Of a DNA stretch of 64,000 bases, positions 27,951 through 37,558 are shown piece after piece (position 1 is the stretch's first letter; each line of letters opens with the position of its first letter). The notes under the pieces are model-generated. The model worked only from the letters and a program-made list of their open reading frames with translations, was not told where the DNA came from and made no database searches. This stretch comes from Janthinobacterium sp. 64 (GTDB lineage: Bacteria > Pseudomonadota > Gammaproteobacteria > Burkholderiales > Burkholderiaceae_D), in the NCBI RefSeq assembly GCF_002813325.1, contig NZ_PHUG01000001.1, positions 5,022,001 through 5,086,000 of the forward strand, written 5' to 3'. Position numbers and translations under genes: made by a program.

Positions 27951-28175
27951 GGTAGCGATATCGGGACGTGGTGGAAAATCACAATGGACGATTTGTCTAT
28001 CCCCTGACGACAATAGGGTCGGCCGTGAAAGCGGCAGGGATGACAGGCTGTGCACATGATAATGCGAATCGGGAATTTGCGTACTGATCGGTAAAAAACT
28101 CGTGCTGATCGGGGGCGGTACCGCTTGAACTGGAGAAATTGCCGTCGGCTTCGGAACTTTTCTTGCCAGTGCCAG

Positions 28176-28198
28176 TCTTAAGAAGTCGTGTCTTAAGA
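28176..28198 (+). promoter_or_regulatory. Paired palindromes upstream of galT, candidate operator
   Basis: The 8-bp palindrome TCTTAAGA occurs twice, at 28176-28183 and 28191-28198, with centres 15 bases apart and 12 bases from the galT start. A repeated palindrome so close to the start could be a repressor site for the galactose operon. No regulator gene is encoded next to it. Function is inferred from position. Confidence 0.4.
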
Positions 28199-28210
28199 TT
28201 GCGAAACATC

Positions 28211-29314
28211 ATGTATTGCAAGCAACTCGTCAAGCCCGACGGCCGCCAGCTGACCCTCTACAGCCGGCGTCCCATCGTCGTCGCCGGTCTTGCACCGAGT
28301 CCTTTCCCGCTGCCGCAGCAAGCCAATCCGCACTTGCGCTGGCACCCCTTGCGCGGCGAGTGGGTGGCGTATGCGGCTTACCGCCAGGGCCGCACTTTCC
28401 TGCCACCGCCAGAGTACAACCCGCTGGCGCCCACGCGCGATCCCGACCATCCGACGGAATTGCCTGCCGGCGACTATGATATCGCCGTCTTCGACAACCG
28501 CTTTCCCACCCTGGCGCCGCATGCCCATGACCCGCCCGACCTGACGGTCGCCACGGCGCCCGCCAGCGGCCATTGCGAAGTGGTGGTGTTCGCCCAGGAT
28601 GCCGGCGCTTCGCTCGGTACATTGCCTGTCAGCCACATTGCCTTGCTGCTGCAAGCATGGGCCGGACGCACGCAGGAGCTGGCCAGTCGGCCCGGCATCG
28701 CCTACGTGCTGCCGTTCGAAAACCGTGGCGCGGAAGTGGGCGTGACCCTGCACCATCCGCATGGCCAGATCTACGCCTATCCCTTTGTCCCGCCGGTGCC
28801 GGCGCGCATGCTGGCGCAGGAGCGCGCGTATTGTGCCGAGCATGGCCAGGCCTTGCTGGTGGACATGGCGCGGCGCGAAGCCGATGGCGGCACGCGCTTG
28901 CTGTATCTGGGACCGGAAGCCATCGCCTTTGTTCCCGCCTGCGCCCGCTACCCGTATGAAGCGTGGGTGATGCCGCGGCGGCAGACGGACAGTTTTACGG
29001 CTTTGTCGGCCGGGCAGCGCGAGGATCTCGCATGCGCGCTGAAAACCGTCTTGCTGAAATACGACGGCCTGTGGCAACGCGCCATGCCCTATCTGATGGC
29101 CTGGTACCAGGCGCCGCCGGACGGGTGCGCGCACCCGGAAACGCAGCTGCACGCGCAGTTCTATCCGCCGTATCGCACGCGCGAACGGCTCAAATACCTG
29201 GCTGGCACGGAGCTGGCCGCCGGCATGTACGCCATGGATGCCTTGCCCGAGGAATCGGCGCGGCAGTTGCAGCAAGTGCGCGTGGCATGGGAAATGGCAG
29301 GAGATATCGCATGA
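28211..29314 (+). CDS. galT: Galactose-1-phosphate uridylyltransferase
   Basis: The start at 28211 ([12 protein letters not shown]) gives 367 residues. The active-site strand [12 protein letters not shown] and the preceding [12 protein letters not shown] are the GalT histidine-triad motif. GalT exchanges UMP between UDP-glucose and galactose-1-phosphate in the Leloir pathway. The zinc cysteines (CPLCP in many homologues) are replaced by NPLAP, so the structural metal site is probably missing. The gene opens a five-gene operon; its stop overlaps the next start (ATGA). Confidence 0.93.
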
Positions 29315-30426
29315 ACTGGAATGTGGAACTGGAAATTGCACATAAGCTGGCGCAGATGCGCGGCTGGCTGGAACAGGAGCGCGCTGGCGTGCTGCGCTTG
29401 CGCGGTGTGGACTGGTTCGCCTGGGCCACGGCGGGCGCGTCGGGCAGCGCCAGCCACTCGGCCGAGTGCGGCTGTGCCGAGGTGCTCGTCACGCGCGATG
29501 CGGCCTACATCCTGACCGATGCGGCCGAGGCGCAGCGGCTGCGCCAGGAAGAGGTGCGCGGCAGCTGGACCTGGCAAGTGACGCCGTGGATGCAGCCGCG
29601 GATGGCCGAGCTGCGCGAACACTTCGTGCAGCATGCGGCAGGCGGGCGCTCCGTGCTGTGCGACCGGCCGGGCCTGCATGAACGCAGCCTGCCCGCCGCG
29701 CTGCGCGAAGAGCGCCTGCCCCTGCTGGCCGCGGAACAGGCGCGCTACCGCGAAGTGGGACGCCTGGCCGCCGCGGCCGCCAGCGAAGCGCTGCGCGCCG
29801 CGCGTCCTGGCTGGAGCGAGCAGGACCTGGCCGGCGCCTGCGCCCGCGCCCTGTGGTCGCGCGGTCTGCACGCCGTGTACGTGCTGGCGGCCGGTGCCGA
29901 GCGCTTCGAGCGCTACCGGCGCGCGCCACCGGCCGCGTCGCCGCTGGGCGAGCGGGCCGTGCTGGCGCTGTGCGCGCAAGCTTACGGCCTGTGCGCCAGT
30001 CTGAGCCGCCAGCGCCGCTTCGTTCCCGTCCCTCCCGCGCGCGACGGCATCGATGAAGCGGACGCGGCCATCCTGGCGCTGGAAGCGGTGGCGCTCGATG
30101 CCTGCGAAGTGGGCCACGCGCTGAGCATGGTGTATCACGCGCTCGACAGCGCCTATGCGTATGCGGGCCAGCCCGATACGGTGCATGAATACCGGCAGGG
30201 CGGCATCGCCGGCTACCGCTCGCCCGAAGTGGCGGCCGGCGCGCACACGGAAATCGCCCTGAAGGACGGCATGGCGCTGGCCTTCCATCCCAGCTTGCCC
30301 TGCAGCATGGTGGAAGACACTTTCCTGCTCAGCGGCGGGCGTCTGCACAACCTGACTTGCGACCCGGACTGGCCGGTCACTTCTGTGCAGGGAAGGCTGC
30401 GTCCGCTGACCCTGGAGTTGCCATGA
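29311..30426 (+). CDS. M24-fold protein (aminopeptidase/creatinase-like), probably not a metallopeptidase
   Basis: The start at 29311 overlaps the galT stop (ATGA) and the stop overlaps galK (ATGA); product 371 residues. The N-terminal half resembles the creatinase N-domain and the C-terminal half keeps the order of the M24 pita-bread fold. The usual metal ligands look degenerate: the two aspartates are absent around ALCAQAYGLCASLSRQRRF, a histidine is seen in VHEYRQGG, and the first glutamate position reads AFHPSLP, though a later VED glutamate remains. Its tight coupling between galT and galK suggests a role in galactose or glycan metabolism, not peptide degradation. Function is unknown. 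Confidence 0.75.
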   Translation: MNWNVELEIAHKLAQMRGWLEQERAGVLRLRGVDWFAWATAGASGSASHSAECGCAEVLVTRDAAYILTDAAEAQRLRQEEVRGSWTWQVTPWMQPRMAELREHFVQHAAGGRSVLCDRPGLHERSLPAALREERLPLLAAEQARYREVGRLAAAAASEALRAARPGWSEQDLAGACARALWSRGLHAVYVLAAGAERFERYRRAPPAASPLGERAVLALCAQAYGLCASLSRQRRFVPVPPARDGIDEADAAILALEAVALDACEVGHALSMVYHALDSAYAYAGQPDTVHEYRQGGIAGYRSPEVAAGAHTEIALKDGMALAFHPSLPCSMVEDTFLLSGGRLHNLTCDPDWPVTSVQGRLRPLTLELP

Positions 30427-31490
30427 TCAGCCCCGACGCGTATTTTGGCGCCAGCCCCGTGGTGGAGGCGTCGGCGCCCGGCAGGGTCAACCTGCTGGGC
30501 GAGCATACGGACTACAACGATGGCTACATGCTGCCGTGCGCCACGCCGCAGCGCACGCGCGTGAGGCTGGCGCTGGCCGCCGACGGACACCACCAGTTCT
30601 ATTCGGCAACCCTTGATCAGCTCGTGCATTTCGAGCAGCAGTGCGCCGCGCCGCCCGGCTTTGGCCGCTACCTGGAAGGCTGTATCCGCCTGCTTGAGGA
30701 GCGCGGCGTCGCCGTGCCCGCCGTGCGTGCCCACATCGATTCGGACGTGCCGCCGGGCGCCGGCCTGTCGAGCAGCGCAGCGCTGGAGATCGCCATGCTG
30801 CGAGCGCTGCGCCAGCTGCTGGGGCTGCAGATTGACGACGTGTCGCTGGCGCTGATGGGGCAGCAGGCGGAAGTCCGCTACGCGCAAGTCAATTGTGGCG
30901 TGATGGACCAGATGGCGTCGAGCCTGGCCGACGAGCGCCATATGCTGCTGCTCGATGCGCGTACCTTGCAGCATGAATTGCTCGACTTGCCCGGCGACAG
31001 CGAGGTGCTGGTCATCGACAGCGGCGTGGCGCGCACCCTGGCCGGCAGCAAGTACAACGAACGGCGCGCCGAATGCGAACAGGCGGCGCGCCTGCTGGGC
31101 GTGGCGGCGCTGCGCGACGTGCGCGCGCCGTCCATGGTGGACGGCTTGCCCGAGCCGTACCGCCGCCGCGCGCGCCATGTGGTCAGCGAAAACCTGCGCG
31201 TGCTGCAAGCGTGCGGCCAGCATGATCCCGTGCTCTTCGGCCAGTTGATGGCGCTGTCGCACGCCAGCCTGCGCGACGATTACGAGGTGTCGCTGCCGTT
31301 GCTCGATACGCTGGTGGCGCTGATGTCGGCACAGTCCGCCGTGTACGGCGCGCGCCTGACCGGTGCCGGTTTTGGCGGCGCTTGCGTGGCCCTGTGCCGC
31401 AAGCAGTGCGCGGCCAGCGCGGGGCGCGCGGTGGTGCAGCGCTTTAACGCTGATGGACACAGCGCACGCATGGTGGTTCCGTTGACGTGA
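30423..31490 (+). CDS. galK: Galactokinase
   Basis: The start at 30423 (MISPDAYFGAS) overlaps the previous stop; product 355 residues. All GHMP-kinase landmarks are present: the galactose signature GRVNLLGEHTDYNDG, the ATP loop PPGAGLSSSAALE and the C-terminal LTGAGFGGACVAL. It phosphorylates galactose at C1 with ATP in the cytoplasm, feeding GalT. Length is slightly below E. coli GalK (382). No galE or galM lies in the operon. Confidence 0.95.
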   Translation: MISPDAYFGASPVVEASAPGRVNLLGEHTDYNDGYMLPCATPQRTRVRLALAADGHHQFYSATLDQLVHFEQQCAAPPGFGRYLEGCIRLLEERGVAVPAVRAHIDSDVPPGAGLSSSAALEIAMLRALRQLLGLQIDDVSLALMGQQAEVRYAQVNCGVMDQMASSLADERHMLLLDARTLQHELLDLPGDSEVLVIDSGVARTLAGSKYNERRAECEQAARLLGVAALRDVRAPSMVDGLPEPYRRRARHVVSENLRVLQACGQHDPVLFGQLMALSHASLRDDYEVSLPLLDTLVALMSAQSAVYGARLTGAGFGGACVALCRKQCAASAGRAVVQRFNADGHSARMVVPLT

Positions 31491-31556
31491 GCGTGTGTTG
31501 ATCTTGCTCATGCGTTGCGGCGCAAGCCCCCTACGCCGGAACTTGCTCCTTGCCGC

Positions 31557-33407
31557 ATGCATCCAACAGGCATGCTCAATGACCATCTCTCCCCACCCGA
31601 TACAGATGAAGGCCAGGCCGAAACCGTCCTGTCTGGCGCGGGCGGCTTCGCCTATCCCCGCCCGCAGATGGTGCGCGAAAACTGGCAATCGCTGAACGGC
31701 ACCTGGCGTTTCACCTTTGACAATGAACGGCGCTATCGCCTGCCCGATGGCGGCATCGGCTGGACGCACGAGATCACCGTGCCATTTCCGCCCGAATCGC
31801 AGGCCAGCGGCGTGGGCGACCGGGGCTTTCACCGCGTCTGCTGGTACCAGCGCGAGTTCCTGCTGCAGCCGGGCGGCCCCTGCGTGCTGCTGCATTTCGG
31901 CGCCGTCGACTACCATGCGAAGGTGTGGCTGAACGGGCATGTGGTGGCCGACCACGAGGGCGGACACACGCCGTTTGTCGCCCACATCAGCCATGCGCTG
32001 CTGCCCAACGGGCCGCAGGTGCTGACGGTGCGCGTCGAGGACGATCCGCACGACCTGGCCAAGCCGCGCGGCAAGCAGGACTGGCAACTGCTGCCCCATT
32101 CCATCTGGTATCCGCGCACCACGGGCATCTGGCAAAGCGTGTGGATCGAGCGCGTGGCGGCCACCTACATCGGCAAGCTGCGCTGGACGCCCGTGTTCGA
32201 GGGCTACGAGATCGGCTGCGAAGTGTTCGCCATGGGCGACCTGCAGGATGACCTCACGGTGGGCGTGCGCATCTGGCATGGCGGCAACCTGCTGGCCGAC
32301 GACCAGTACAAGCTGATCGAAAACGAGGCGAGCCGCAAGATCGCGCTGTCCGACCCCGGCATCGACGATTCGCGCAACGAATTGCTGTGGAGTCCGGAGC
32401 GTCCCATTTTGCTCGATGCCGAAGTGACCTTGTGGCATGACGGCGAGCTGCTCGATACGGTCAAGTCGTACACGGCGCTGCGCTCGGTGGCGATCAACCG
32501 CGACCGCTTCATGCTCAATGGCCGGCCGTATCCGCTGCGCCTGGTGCTCGACCAGGGTTACTGGCCCGACACTCTGCTGGCGGCGCCTTCCGACGACGCC
32601 TTGCGGCGCGACGTGGAACTGGCCAAGGCCCTGGGTTTCAACGGCGTGCGCAAGCACCAGAAGATCGAGGATCCGCGCTACCTGTACTGGGCAGACCGCC
32701 TGGGCTTGCTCGTGTGGGAAGAAATGCCATCGACCTACCGCTTTTCCAGCAAGGCCATCACGCGCATGGTGCGCGAATGGACGGACGTGATCGAGCGCGA
32801 CTACAGCCACCCGTGCATCCTCGTCTGGGTGCCGTTCAATGAATCGTGGGGCGTGCCCAACCTGACGGCCATCCAGGCGCACCGCAACGCCGTCGAAGCG
32901 CTGTACCACCTGACGCGCACGCTCGACCCCACGCGCCCCGTGATCGGCAACGACGGCTGGGAAGCGTCGGCCACCGACATCCTCGGCATCCACGATTACG
33001 ACTGCGATCCGGAACGCCTGCAGGCGCGCTATGCGATCAGCGATTCGGCCCGCACGACCCTGTTCGACCAGCGCCGCCCGGGTGGGCGCATCCTCACGCT
33101 CGACGGCTTCCCGCACCGGGGCCAGCCCATCGTCCTGACGGAATTTGGCGGCATCGCCTTTGACCGGGAACAGGGTGAATCGCCGGAAACCTGGGGCTAT
33201 GCGCGCGTGGGCAACGAGGCGGCCTTCCTCGATATTTACCGACGCCTGATGACGGTCGTCAATACGGCGCAGATGTTCAGCGGCTTTTGCTACACGCAGT
33301 TCGCCGACACCTTCCAGGAAGCCAATGGCCTGCTGACGGCGGACCGAACGCCGAAGGCCGCGCTGGAACTGCTCAGCGCGGCCACCTGCAACATCCGGCT
33401 CAATTGA
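31557..33407 (+). CDS. Glycoside hydrolase family 2 protein (beta-galactosidase/glucuronidase-like)
   Basis: The start is uncertain; I take ATG 31557 (MHPTGMLND), with ATG 31572 as alternative; neither has a good ribosome binding site. About 616 residues. The order is a jelly-roll sugar-binding domain (WQSLNGTWRFTFDNE, FHRVCWYQREF), an Ig-like domain, then a TIM barrel. Catalytic residues are visible as acid/base E429 in VPFNESWG and nucleophile E529 in LTEFGGIAF. There is no signal peptide, so the enzyme should act in the cytoplasm. Its place after galK fits release of galactose from an imported oligosaccharide, but glucuronide or mannoside substrates cannot be excluded. Confidence 0.88.
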   Translation: MHPTGMLNDHLSPPDTDEGQAETVLSGAGGFAYPRPQMVRENWQSLNGTWRFTFDNERRYRLPDGGIGWTHEITVPFPPESQASGVGDRGFHRVCWYQREFLLQPGGPCVLLHFGAVDYHAKVWLNGHVVADHEGGHTPFVAHISHALLPNGPQVLTVRVEDDPHDLAKPRGKQDWQLLPHSIWYPRTTGIWQSVWIERVAATYIGKLRWTPVFEGYEIGCEVFAMGDLQDDLTVGVRIWHGGNLLADDQYKLIENEASRKIALSDPGIDDSRNELLWSPERPILLDAEVTLWHDGELLDTVKSYTALRSVAINRDRFMLNGRPYPLRLVLDQGYWPDTLLAAPSDDALRRDVELAKALGFNGVRKHQKIEDPRYLYWADRLGLLVWEEMPSTYRFSSKAITRMVREWTDVIERDYSHPCILVWVPFNESWGVPNLTAIQAHRNAVEALYHLTRTLDPTRPVIGNDGWEASATDILGIHDYDCDPERLQARYAISDSARTTLFDQRRPGGRILTLDGFPHRGQPIVLTEFGGIAFDREQGESPETWGYARVGNEAAFLDIYRRLMTVVNTAQMFSGFCYTQFADTFQEANGLLTADRTPKAALELLSAATCNIRLN

Positions 33408-33460
33408 ACGCAAGCCGGACCTCGCACGTTTCATCTGGTTCAGATTTCAAAGGAGCAGGC

Positions 33461-36400
33461 ATGGCCGATACCGATGGCGCGGCAGCGCCGTTCCTGACTT
33501 ACTGGCAGGCTGGCTACGAAGGTGCCGACCATGTCACCCATGGCGGCCAGGCGCTGGACATGAACCGCGCCACGGGCCACCTGGACAGGGTGCGCGCAGA
33601 CTACCTGCTGCTGCGCCAGTTCGGCATTCGCAGCGTGCGCGAAAGCATAGGCTGGCGCCTGGCCGAGCGCGATGGCCAGTTCGATTTCTCTTTCATCGAG
33701 GAGCGCGCCGCCGTGGCGCAGGAACTGGGCCTGCAGATCAACTGGACCTTCTGCCACTACGGCTGGCCGGCCGGGCTCGACCTGTTTTCACCCGACTTCG
33801 TGCCGCGCTTTGCCCGCTATTGCCGGGCGGCGGCGCAGTTCCTCGCGCCGTATGCGGGTAGCGCGCCCGTGTATTCGCCCATCAATGAAATCTCGTTTAC
33901 CAGCTGGGGCTTGTCCGTGCACATGTTTCAGTGCCTGAATATGTACCGGGCCGATGCGGGCCACGAAGGCAAGCGGCAGCTGGTGCGCGCCAGCATTGCC
34001 GCCTGCGACGCGATCCGCGCCGTCAGTCCACAGGCGCGCTTCCTGCAATGCGATCCCCTGATCCACGTGACCGCGCCGCCCGGACGCACGGACTGGGTCG
34101 ACCAGGCGGCGGCCTGGCGCGCCTCGCAGTTCGAAGCGTGGGACATGCTGTGCGGCCGGCAAGCGCCGGAACTGGGCGGCGCGCCGCGCTACCTGGACTT
34201 GATCGGCCTGAACTATTACCACAGCAACCAGTGGGAAAGCGGCAGCAATTTGCGCCTGTGGTGGCACCTGGGCGAACCGCGCCGCATGCCCCTGCACCAG
34301 TTGCTGCTGGAAGTGCAGGCGCGCTACCAGCGGCCGCTGCTGCTGGCGGAAACGAGCCACGTGGGCAGCGGGCGCGGTGCCTGGATACGCGACGTGGCCG
34401 CCGAGGCGGCGCTGGCCGTCCAGCATGGCGCCGCGCTGCGCGGCATCTGCATCTATCCCATCATCGACCGTCCAGACTGGGATGATGCCAGCCACTGGCA
34501 CCACAGCGGCCTGTGGGAGGCTGGCCTGGAAGGCGAGGGGGGCGAGCGGCTGCGGCGCATCCCCGTGCCCCCTTATGCGGCGGCATTACGGCAGGCACAG
34601 CGTCTGACCGGACAACTTTGTTCAACGTTTGCCCTGGCGGGGCAGAAAGGAACTGGCATGCGAACCATCATCGTGTTTTCCCATTTGCGCTGGAATTTCG
34701 TGTATCAGCGTCCGCAGCAGCTGCTGTCGCGGCTGGCGCAATTCTACCGCGTGGTCTTCGTCGAGGAACCCGTCTGGCACGATGGACCCGGCACGCTGGA
34801 ACTGTCCACGCCGGCGCCGAACGTGACCGTGTGCCAGCCCCGCACGGCCGTGCAGGCACCCGGCTTTCACGACGACCAGCTGGCCGTGCTGCAGCCCCTG
34901 CTGAGCCAGATCACGCCTGCCGACGACCCCATCGTGTGGTTCTATACGCCGATGGCGCTGCCGCTGCTGCCGGCCCTGCACGCGGGCCTGGTCGTGTATG
35001 ACTGCATGGATGAGCTGGCCGCGTTCAAGAATGCGCCGCGTCAGTTGTTGCAGCGCGAAGCGGCCTTGCTGGCGCGCGCCGACCTCGTGTTCGCGGGCGG
35101 GCCCAGCCTGTTCGAGGCGAAGCGCTCGCGTCATGCCAACGTGCATTGTTTCGCCAGCAGCGTCGACACCGTGCACTTCGAACAGGCGCTGGACCGCCAC
35201 AATGGCCATCCCGCGCAGGCGGAGATCGGCCGGCCCAGGCTCGGCTATTACGGCGTGATCGACGAACGTTTCGAGCCGGCCCTGGTGGCGGCGCTGGCCG
35301 ATGCCCATCCCGACTGGCAAATCGTGCTGGTCGGCCCCATCCTCAAGATCGACCCGGCCAGCCTGCCGCAGCGGCAGAATATCCATTACCTGGGCCAGCA
35401 ACCGTATCAGGCCCTGCCGCACTTCCTGGCCGGCTGGGACGTGTGCCTGCTGCCGTTTGCCAGCAATGAGGCGACCCGCTTCATCAGTCCCACCAAGGTG
35501 CTCGAATACATGGCGGCGCAACTGCCCATCGTCAGCACCCCGATCGCCGATGTGGCCGTGCCGTATGGCCACATCGTGGCCATCGCCGACACGCCCGACG
35601 CCTTTGTTGCCGCCTGCGAGGCGGCGCTGGCCGCGACGCCGGAACAGCGCGCGGTCATGGCCGCGAACATGCGCGCCATCGTCGAGGCCACCTCCTGGGA
35701 TGCCACGGTGGAGCAGATGCGCAACTTGCTCGACACGACACCGCCGGGGCAGGGCGCGCGCCAGGCCGTGCCCGCCGCCGGCACGGGGCAAGCCGCCGCA
35801 GCAGGCGCCGGTGCCGATGTCAATCTGCTGCATCCCCCCGGTGCGCCGCAAGCCGTGGCCTGCGCCATCATCGGCGCCGGTCCGACGGGCCTGAGCGCCG
35901 CCTATCACCTGGGCGCCGATACCTTGCTGCTGGACAAAAATGCCACCGTGGGCGGCTGGTGCCGCTCCATCCAGGACCGCGGTTTTACCTTCGATCACGC
36001 GGGCCACATCATGTTTTCCAACGATGACTATGTGCTCGACATGTACCGCACCTTGCTGGGTACTAACCTGCACTGGCAAAACCGCGAAGCCTGGGTTTAC
36101 AGCAAGCAGGTCTACACGCGCTATCCTTTCCAGGGGGCGCTGTACGGCTTGCCGCCGGCCGTCATCAAGGAATGCATCGTCGGCGCCATCGAGGCGCGCT
36201 ACGGCAAGGCGCCGGCCGCGCCAAGCCCTGAAGCGGCTGCGGCCTGCGCCGTGGAAGACTGCTGCGCCGACGGCGGCACGGGGCTGGAACAGGTGCACGA
36301 TGCCGTGGCGGCGCCGGACCAAGCCCAGGGCCAGAGCGCGCCCAATTTCGAGCAATTCATCCATCAGGTGTGGGGCAGCGGCATCGCCCGCCATTTTGCG

Positions 36401-37297
36401 ATTCCCTACAACAAGAAATTGTGGACCGTCCCCCTGGCCGAAATGGAAACGTCGTGGCTGGGCGGGCGGGTGCCCTTGCCGAACCTAGAAGAAATCATCG
36501 AGGGCGCGCTCGAACCGGTGGCCAGGCCGATGGGCCCGAATGCGCGCTTCGGCTACCCCTTGCGCGGCGGTTTTCAGGCCTTGATGTCGGGCTTCCTGCC
36601 GCACCTGCAGGGCAAGCTGGAACTCAATGCCGATGTGGTGCAGGTCTTGCCGCGCCAGCACGTGATCGTGCTGGGCGATGGCCGCCGTTTCCGCTATCAG
36701 CACTTGCTGAGCACCATGCCCCTGCCGCAACTGGTGCGCCTGATCGGCGAGCAGGCGCCGCCGCGGGTACAGGCGGCAGCGCGCGCCTTGCGGCATATTT
36801 CCGTGCGCTGCGTCAACCTGGGCGTGGCGCGCGAAAACATCAGCGAGAAACACTGGATTTACTATCCGGAAGAGACGATATTCCACCGTATTTTCCTGCA
36901 AGGGAATGCCAGCCCCCACTGCAACGCGCCGGGTGGTTTCGGCCTGACGTGCGAGATCAGTTATTCGCCCTGGAAACCGTTGCCGCTCGATGGACAGGCC
37001 CTGATCGACCGCTGCATGGCTGACTGCATCGCGGTGGGTTTGCTGCGCGACGATGACCGCCTGCTGGTCGCCAACCAGGTAGACATGCCGTACGCCTACG
37101 TGGTGTACGACCATGCGCGGGCCGCCAACGTGGCGCTGGTGAAAGCATGGCTGTCCACGCAGGACATCGTGCTGGCGGGACGCTACAGCGAGTGGGAATA
37201 CTACAATTCCGACCATGCCTTCCTGGCCGGGAAAAAAGCGGCGGAACTGATCGCCGGGCTGGCGGCAAGCCAGCGCAAGGTGGGTATGGTGGAATAG
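33461..37297 (+). CDS. Three-domain fusion: glycoside hydrolase, glycosyltransferase and UGM-like FAD oxidoreductase
   Basis: The start at 33461 (MADTDGAAAPF) follows AAGGAG at 33449-33454 and gives 1278 residues. Residues 1 to about 395 form a GH1/GH5-like barrel: acid/base in YSPINEISF (E143) and nucleophile in LLLAETSHVG (E297). Residues 400 to about 760 are a GT4-like transferase (FSHLRWNFVYQRPQQLL; ATRFISPTKVLEYMAAQLPI). A Pro/Ala/Gly linker leads to an FAD enzyme from 799 (IIGAGPTGLSAAYHLG) resembling UDP-galactopyranose mutase or protoporphyrinogen oxidase, with a low-complexity insert near 915-970. M400 is preceded by AAAGGAA, so a separate GT-FAD protein may also be made. The role may be in assembling or remodelling a galactose-containing glycan; this is inference. 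Confidence 0.85.
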   Translation: MADTDGAAAPFLTYWQAGYEGADHVTHGGQALDMNRATGHLDRVRADYLLLRQFGIRSVRESIGWRLAERDGQFDFSFIEERAAVAQELGLQINWTFCHYGWPAGLDLFSPDFVPRFARYCRAAAQFLAPYAGSAPVYSPINEISFTSWGLSVHMFQCLNMYRADAGHEGKRQLVRASIAACDAIRAVSPQARFLQCDPLIHVTAPPGRTDWVDQAAAWRASQFEAWDMLCGRQAPELGGAPRYLDLIGLNYYHSNQWESGSNLRLWWHLGEPRRMPLHQLLLEVQARYQRPLLLAETSHVGSGRGAWIRDVAAEAALAVQHGAALRGICIYPIIDRPDWDDASHWHHSGLWEAGLEGEGGERLRRIPVPPYAAALRQAQRLTGQLCSTFALAGQKGTGMRTIIVFSHLRWNFVYQRPQQLLSRLAQFYRVVFVEEPVWHDGPGTLELSTPAPNVTVCQPRTAVQAPGFHDDQLAVLQPLLSQITPADDPIVWFYTPMALPLLPALHAGLVVYDCMDELAAFKNAPRQLLQREAALLARADLVFAGGPSLFEAKRSRHANVHCFASSVDTVHFEQALDRHNGHPAQAEIGRPRLGYYGVIDERFEPALVAALADAHPDWQIVLVGPILKIDPASLPQRQNIHYLGQQPYQALPHFLAGWDVCLLPFASNEATRFISPTKVLEYMAAQLPIVSTPIADVAVPYGHIVAIADTPDAFVAACEAALAATPEQRAVMAANMRAIVEATSWDATVEQMRNLLDTTPPGQGARQAVPAAGTGQAAAAGAGADVNLLHPPGAPQAVACAIIGAGPTGLSAAYHLGADTLLLDKNATVGGWCRSIQDRGFTFDHAGHIMFSNDDYVLDMYRTLLGTNLHWQNREAWVYSKQVYTRYPFQGALYGLPPAVIKECIVGAIEARYGKAPAAPSPEAAAACAVEDCCADGGTGLEQVHDAVAAPDQAQGQSAPNFEQFIHQVWGSGIARHFAIPYNKKLWTVPLAEMETSWLGGRVPLPNLEEIIEGALEPVARPMGPNARFGYPLRGGFQALMSGFLPHLQGKLELNADVVQVLPRQHVIVLGDGRRFRYQHLLSTMPLPQLVRLIGEQAPPRVQAAARALRHISVRCVNLGVARENISEKHWIYYPEETIFHRIFLQGNASPHCNAPGGFGLTCEISYSPWKPLPLDGQALIDRCMADCIAVGLLRDDDRLLVANQVDMPYAYVVYDHARAANVALVKAWLSTQDIVLAGRYSEWEYYNSDHAFLAGKKAAELIAGLAASQRKVGMVE
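34646..34660 (+). promoter_or_regulatory. Internal ribosome binding site and ATG at the hydrolase/transferase boundary
   Basis: AAAGGAA lies 7-9 bases before ATG 34658, which encodes M400 of the fusion and begins the motif MRTIIVFSHLRWNF, the natural N-terminus of GT4 proteins. This is what would be expected if two genes had been fused by loss of a stop codon, or if both long and short products are made. Confidence 0.5.
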
Positions 37298-37303
37298 GCG
37301 CTA

Positions 37304-37336
37304 GCGCCGGGAGCACGGGAATGGCGCTCCCGGCGC
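37304..37336. repeat. 11-bp perfect inverted repeat after the fusion gene
   Basis: gcgccgggagc (37304-37314) pairs with gctcccggcgc (37326-37336) with an 11-base loop, seven bases after the stop of the fusion gene. No T run follows, so it may act as an mRNA 3' stabiliser or factor-dependent stop. Confidence 0.55.
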
Positions 37337-37393
37337 GTGGCAGGCACGATGGGAACGACGGACATGGGGGATGCGATGAAGATGAGGGACGGG

Positions 37394-37449
37394 TAACAGG
37401 CAACAGGCAACAGGCAACAGACAACAGACAACAGACAACAGACAACAGG
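37394..37449. repeat. Heptanucleotide tandem repeat, eight units
   Basis: Eight consecutive 7-bp units of the form caacagR (one taacagg, then caacagg and caacaga variants) fill 37394-37449 between the fusion gene and the convergent lipoprotein gene. It is outside any gene I can support. Such arrays change length by slippage and are useful strain markers. Confidence 0.9.
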
Positions 37450-37558
37450 CAGCAAGACAGGCAAGGACGATGGAACCTGCCTTGCCTGTGCAGGGCGCGG
37501 GTGGCGCGCCTGGCCAATGGCGCTCTGCGCCCCGAACGCCAAGGGCCAGGCGGGATCG

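Follow-up and report, generated by a model that had tools for sequence, protein, structure and literature searches.

What is made by a gene that reads a glycoside hydrolase (GH), a glycosyltransferase (GT) and a flavin adenine dinucleotide (FAD) enzyme in one frame? In a 64,000-nucleotide stretch of the Janthinobacterium sp. 64 genome (contig NZ_PHUG01000001.1, positions 5,022,001 to 5,086,000; hereafter the window), a single open frame runs from an ATG at 33461 to a TAG at 37295-37297 and encodes 1278 residues in which these three parts follow one another. A first-pass annotation had described such a three-domain fusion, and domain scans together with intact frames in relatives bear it out. 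Its landmarks (N142-E143, E297, M400, AAAGGAA at 34646-34652, the linker and the start of the FAD domain) are correctly placed, with the FAD GxGxxG region beginning near residue 800 and Pfam NAD_binding_8 from 803. From the sequence, we think it probable that the gene encodes a galactofuranosyltransferase that supplies its own donor and carries an optional hydrolase, being made in a long and a short form. Known enzyme types are joined here in a seemingly new layout, and the earlier remark that no such layout was described agrees with our search of open-access literature, in which no title or abstract among those listed described a GH1-GT4-UGM fusion or system.

The argument begins at the C-terminal end, where a "UGM-like" enzyme had been proposed. 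That proposal can be strengthened: judged by its sequence, the domain is a eukaryote-type UDP-galactopyranose mutase (UGM), its substrate contacts are intact, and canonical UGM substitutes for it in the gene content of relatives. In phmmer searches it matched T. cruzi UGM at E 2.5e-45 and A. fumigatus UGM (AfUGM) at E 3.3e-42, and the FAD-motif glycines G805, G807 and G810 are invariant across 16 rows. All 15 AfUGM substrate or FAD contacts (H63, Y104, F106, Q107, N163, W167, R182, N207, W315, Y317, R327, Y419, R447, Y453 and N457, with W315 being one that we take to be a contact residue) are present in the window, and each position is identical in 56 or 57 of the 57 rows of an alignment made from 56 of 66 GT-UGM pieces and the window, nine loci having been omitted beforehand. 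The contacts were mapped by hand on the phmmer alignment, 14 of them from a table in the available part of PMC3624792, and R182, R327 and H63 are important for function according to the available part of PMC3893270. The domain shares its sequence family and its substrate and FAD contacts with eukaryote-type UGMs such as A. fumigatus UgmA and T. cruzi UGM, but here it is a bacterial fusion domain with a family 4 GT (GT4) in front and a low-complexity DCCADG insert. It presumably catalyzes the same reaction as canonical bacterial UGM (Glf, PF03275), which substitutes for it in related loci and genomes, although it belongs to a separate UGM branch; the accessible text of PMC3624792 gives 14-18% identity between eukaryote-type and bacterial UGMs. 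A DCCxD motif lies inside the otherwise variable mutase insert in 48 of the 57 rows. The DCCADG motif, or a DCCGDG-like form of it, is kept out to Acidobacteriota (locus L077) and Planctomycetota (L079).

Gene content indicates what this domain does for the transferase. We scored 195 genomes of the window's family for GT make-up and for canonical UGM (PF03275, hereafter GLF). GLF was found in 23 of 24 genomes whose only GT lacks a UGM domain, in 6/6 with both kinds of GT, in none of the 14 that have the full fusion, and in 3 of the 124 that show no match; at most three candidates were scored per genome, so that "no match" and the copy counts should be read as lower bounds. Fisher's test gives 1e-8 for 23/24 among UGM-less genomes against 10/41, with kinship ignored. 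By genus code, six genera hold the 14 fusions and eight hold the 23 GLF-bearing UGM-less genomes; four genomes (G076, G131, G148 and G183) were classed as GT-UGM despite a match in two pieces, and the UGM-less class of G204 and G234 rests partly on contig-end pieces. Across 15 genomes in which both lie on one contig, the gap between GT and GLF was 0.6-3.1 kb in ten and 11 kb to 1.5 Mb in five, while a sixteenth, G204, stands outside this count with a distance of about 0.5 Mb.

A second set of genomes was locus-led and excluded L074. Of its 13 genomes with a UGM-less GT, 12 have GLF, against 4 of the 16 that carry a mutase domain (p 5e-4). In the first group GLF was missed only in the 3.0-Mb genome of L099, and the positives include L084 and seven GT-only loci. 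The sequence of L074 and L099 stops within or just past the gene. Since the two genome sets overlap, the tests are not independent, and with related genomes in both, the p-values are only a guide. Substitution is also visible locally: canonical GLF adjoins a UGM-less GT in L087, L089 and L103 (GH-GT) and in L107 (GT alone), and a separate eukaryote-type UGM gene sits beside the GT in L095-L097. A search of the window's own genome did not find canonical GLF. Taken as sequence evidence, the pattern indicates a GT that needs UDP-galactofuranose, supplied in the fusion by the fused domain, and would be hard to explain otherwise.

How might such an enzyme work? Galactose would be activated by GalK and GalT to UDP-galactose, the C-terminal UGM would convert UDP-galactopyranose to UDP-galactofuranose, and the GT4 domain would pass galactofuranose to an acceptor, perhaps a lipid-linked or exported glycan. 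The N-terminal GH1-type domain might trim or remodel the product, and a neighboring GH2 enzyme could feed galactose back into the cycle. UDP-galactofuranose as the GT donor is what we infer, while the acceptor and the hydrolase substrate are guesses. Two starts would be used, residue 1 giving GH-GT-UGM and M400, with its own ribosome-binding site, giving GT-UGM, so that the transferase-mutase could be made in excess of the hydrolase. A more specific version, which we hold only tentatively, sees two nested enzymes in one gene, a mutase-transferase unit alone and that unit extended by a hydrolase. If true, the balance between the two starts would govern how much new glycan is trimmed during synthesis, and the furanose donor would pass straight to the transferase from the mutase to which it is fused.

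The alternative that survives best, unlikely in our view but deserving serious thought, is that GH1, GT4 and GH2 make and break a small galactoside in the cytoplasm, as a compatible solute or store, and that no surface glycan or glycolipid is involved. A hydrolase beside a transferase would suit such a cycle, in which the sugar could be reused through galK and galT. By eye, neither the fusion nor the GH2 enzyme has an obvious signal peptide, and members of GH2_19, the subfamily of the neighbor's closest structural match, are rarely secreted according to the available sections of PMC12243196. However, in L036, L046, L084 and L086 the fusion or GH-GT gene is followed immediately by a gene for an ATP-binding cassette (ABC) exporter, all of one blastp cluster, and this would suit a product that is exported or linked to lipid. 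The L046 exporter, the sole cluster member scanned, is MsbA-like.

The second start calls for its own weighing, because the long protein might be the only one made, with the site before M400 (an ATG at 34658-34660) being a relic of a separate GT-UGM gene or a by-product of linker residues. The first-pass annotation had suggested a second, shorter product from the AAAGGAA motif, and comparison of relatives lends this support through a conserved site and low synonymous change. We examined 36 of 46 fused open reading frames (ORFs), those below 90% identity, and 35 had a start codon at the junction. Pairing with the 16S tail reached -5 kcal or stronger at 27 of these 35 (mean -6.6), the best start being taken where several lie near the junction, which slightly favors the result. 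Among 827 other in-frame ATGs of the same genes, 20% reached that level (mean -2.7), as did 13 of 27 genes at what we presume to be their own start (mean -4.8). The residues alone favor some pairing, as random synonymous recoding still gives a mean of -4.7 kcal; 4/35 junctions fall singly below 0.05 in this test and the combined p is 6e-4, so the signal comes partly from residues and partly from codon choice. Eight of the 35 fusions have a site weaker than -5 kcal. In 21 of 29 GT-UGM genes that lack a GH domain the aligned codon is an ATG, a count that speaks for an internal start as well as for a relic.

Other features of the site speak against a relic or by-product. The motif is retained among proteins 63-74% identical. 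Its core could be located in 35 of 40 genes and falls there in each of the three codon phases (19, 12 and 4), which argues that the bases themselves are kept. In a comparison of 11 Janthinobacterium-type sequences, codons 393-398 show less synonymous difference than any other scored six-codon window (0.005, the mean being 0.289; rank 0.0008). Among 13 other Oxalobacteraceae genes, synonymous change in windows 392-400 ranks at 0.004-0.011, about the lowest 1%, in a test that kept 12/16 and 13/16 input sequences. We therefore doubt that only the long protein is made. On sequence evidence, the site looks like a conserved internal ribosome-binding site, and both the long GH-GT-UGM and the short GT-UGM would be produced. 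Bacteria are known to make shorter protein forms by starting downstream (PMC13245402, in its available part). A separate promoter was considered and dropped, as no sigma-70-like site was found before M400, and the second start is accordingly taken as translational.

Could the FAD domain be something other than a mutase? Its best Pfam matches are NAD_binding_8 and Amino_oxidase; PF03275 gives no match, and the bacterial UGM model TIGR00031 reaches only 17 bits where its cut-off is 304. Among the matches listed, members of the family carry names such as amine oxidase, protoporphyrinogen oxidase and NAD(P)-binding protein in databases. Another amine-oxidase-type FAD/NAD(P) oxidoreductase, as these names imply, is nevertheless quite improbable given the intact eukaryote-type UGM contacts and the substitution of canonical UGM both in gene content and beside the GT.

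The fusion itself is not peculiar to one strain. When 61 genomes were searched, a near full-length, stop-free gene appeared in 12 of 37 same-genus genomes including its own (70-100% identity); the 11 others, at 70-97%, hold one intact frame without internal stops, so the case that the first-pass annotation named as refuting, two separate genes in all close relatives, did not arise. Among the best 120 of 3141 protein matches (a second listing covers 120 of 2756), 119 are of fused length, 1240-1354 amino acids. The sole exception among those listed is P0099, a Janthinobacterium protein of 879 amino acids, 97% identical, whose first residue corresponds to M400. A scan with one genome per species kept 80 of at least 577 relatives and, with twelve same-genus loci added, gave 92 loci, a set that has some species twice (L010 and L043, for example, with identical GTs). 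The fused-versus-split count that the first-pass annotation called for came out at 46 loci with all three domains in one ORF, 29 with GT-UGM, 6 with GH-GT and 11 with GT alone. Fused genes were found in Oxalobacteraceae, Nitrosomonadaceae, Comamonadaceae, Enterobacterales, Shewanella, Lysobacteraceae and others. Eight near-identical Janthinobacterium loci were omitted from a quick GT tree, whose 85 rows require at least 21 changes of make-up, so domains have often been gained or lost. At class level, 5/369 genomes matched, with at most two candidates scored per genome: the window's own and four others at E 1e-100 that have the GT and no more than the beginning of the FAD domain, which shows the fusion to be patchy. 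An assembly error, or the recent loss of a stop codon that had earlier been proposed, can be ruled out almost entirely, for although the parts also exist as separate genes in a few distant loci (L077, L078, L095, L096 and L100), the same frame recurs without stops in the 11 other same-genus genomes and in several orders.

Several observations weigh against a self-supplied transferase with an optional hydrolase. The full gene is absent from 25 of the 37 same-genus genomes and, by genome search, from all 24 same-order genomes outside the family. The GH domain is missing from many relatives which, with the repeated changes of make-up, suggests that the role of the hydrolase may vary by lineage. 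GLF is present in 10 of 27 family genomes with GT-UGM, in a sample of related genomes whose candidate GT matches were scored at E 1e-60 within the limit given above, and no UGM lies within the fetched flanks of L084, L102, L104-L106 and L108-L110. L085 has neither ATG nor GTG at the junction, and the weak junction sites and the modest gain over recoding (-6.6 against -4.7 kcal) count on the same side. The operon is a putative one, read from spacing and strand, and the donor and acceptor of the GT4 domain are likewise putative. Should the proposal hold, it would point to a widespread and apparently unnamed bacterial galactofuranose system that uses a eukaryote-type mutase. It would also offer a candidate galactofuranosyltransferase and an example of one mutase type replacing another, and a domain border kept as a second start would bear on how fused enzymes retain separate expression of their parts.

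The N-terminal domain is, by its sequence, a divergent GH1 relative. It had been called GH1/GH5-like, and the GH1 part of that call stands while the GH5 part was dropped in its favor on profile and Pfam evidence. Alone, the window's hydrolase domain matches no Pfam family at E 0.01, but 15 of 43 hydrolase-domain members match Pfam GH1 (PF00232) at that threshold. A 43-row profile (39 of 43 GH pieces, three separate GH genes and the window) matches GH1 among structures at E 4e-17, in two stretches that span both catalytic regions. N142 and E143 are kept in 42 of the 43 rows and E297 in all, and the acid/base and nucleophile Glu positions line up with the GH1 chain 6z1h. ENG is a GH1 motif; like GH1 beta-glycosidases, the window domain keeps NE and the nucleophile Glu, but unlike them it has ETS in place of ENG. 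GH53 gave a weak match in only 2/43 members, and a GH14 match was at chance level. In L035, a Herminiimonas metagenome-assembled genome (6357-7511), E143 is replaced by G with the fusion open, and this hydrolase is possibly inactive. A related GH1-type domain is found in GH1-RmlD proteins (L067, 12675-14978, and kin), with an hhalign probability of 99.9 against our profile and one protein exceeding the Pfam GH1 cut-off; these share some gene neighborhoods, but their partner is an RmlD-like reductase and not GT-UGM. A GH1-RmlD fusion adjoins GT-UGM or GT genes in 6/40 such loci (L067, L069, L093, L097, L101 and L107). A separate GH gene was counted in 0/14 fused genomes and in 15/57 other matching genomes; we did not use this as evidence because at most three candidates were scored per genome.

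For the transferase, the earlier GT4 call agrees with Pfam Glyco_trans_1_4, which scores 42.6 bits against a cut-off of 27. The best GT-only NCBIfam model is TuaH (E 1.2e-19), though at 70 bits it lies far below the cut-off of 550, and unlike TuaH-like GT4 enzymes the domain is here joined to a mutase. GT4 enzymes have an EX7E motif. By eye it is incomplete, E682 being kept in 57/57 rows and residue 674 of the window being F.

Table. Positions of the fused gene, its parts and neighboring features in the window.
Feature	Positions	Strand	Basis
galT, galactose-1-phosphate uridylyltransferase	28139..29314	+	domain scan
Peptidase M24-like gene	29305..30426	+	at edge of Pfam cut-off
galK, galactokinase	30423..31490	+	domain scan
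GH2 gene	31515..33407	+	closest to 7xyr (GH2_19), also matches 9j6n; NE motif
Ribosome-binding site of long form, AAGGAG	33450..33455	+	read from sequence
Whole fused gene, 1278 amino acids: GH1-type hydrolase, GT4 and eukaryote-type UGM	33461..37297	+	domain scans, relatives
GH1-type hydrolase domain, residues 1-399 (putative acid/base E143 and nucleophile E297)	33461..34657	+	
Putative internal ribosome-binding site, AAAGGAA; six bases from GGA to ATG	34646..34652	+	
Putative short product GT4-UGM, 879 amino acids, internal ATG at M400	34658..37297	+	comparative evidence
TuaH-like GT4 domain, residues 400-770	34658..35770	+	
Low-complexity linker, residues 771-795; no in-frame ATG	35771..35845	+	
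Eukaryote-type UDP-galactopyranose mutase domain, residues 796-1278	35846..37294	+	
Low-complexity insert within mutase; conserved DCCADG motif at 36257-36274	36203..36346	+	
Strong GC hairpin 3' of stop codon, without U run	37300..37341	+	

Upstream and on the same strand as the fusion lie galT, the M24-like gene, galK and the GH2 gene. Massilia has this order next to GT-UGM, whereas the genes of Noviherbaspirillum (L067) run GT-UGM, GH1-RmlD, galT, M24, galK, GH2. The M24-like gene keeps its galT-galK position in relatives. Against the PDB, the GH2 neighbor is closest to chain 7xyr (E 1e-99) and also matches the beta-D-galactofuranosidase 9j6n/9j6m (E 4e-62 and 1e-61), and from its sequence it is a probable intracellular furanosidase. 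By the available text of PMC12243196, furanosidase activities occur in two GH2 subfamilies, GH2_19, to which 7xyr belongs, and GH2_18, which includes 9j6m; the same text gives TV in 7xyr at the place where the window enzyme, unlike it, carries NE. Directly 3' of the fusion stop, the hairpin at 37300-37341 has a folding energy of -32.5 kcal (z -3.65), and further downstream an AACAGAC tandem repeat of 7.7 copies occupies positions 37395-37459 of the window.

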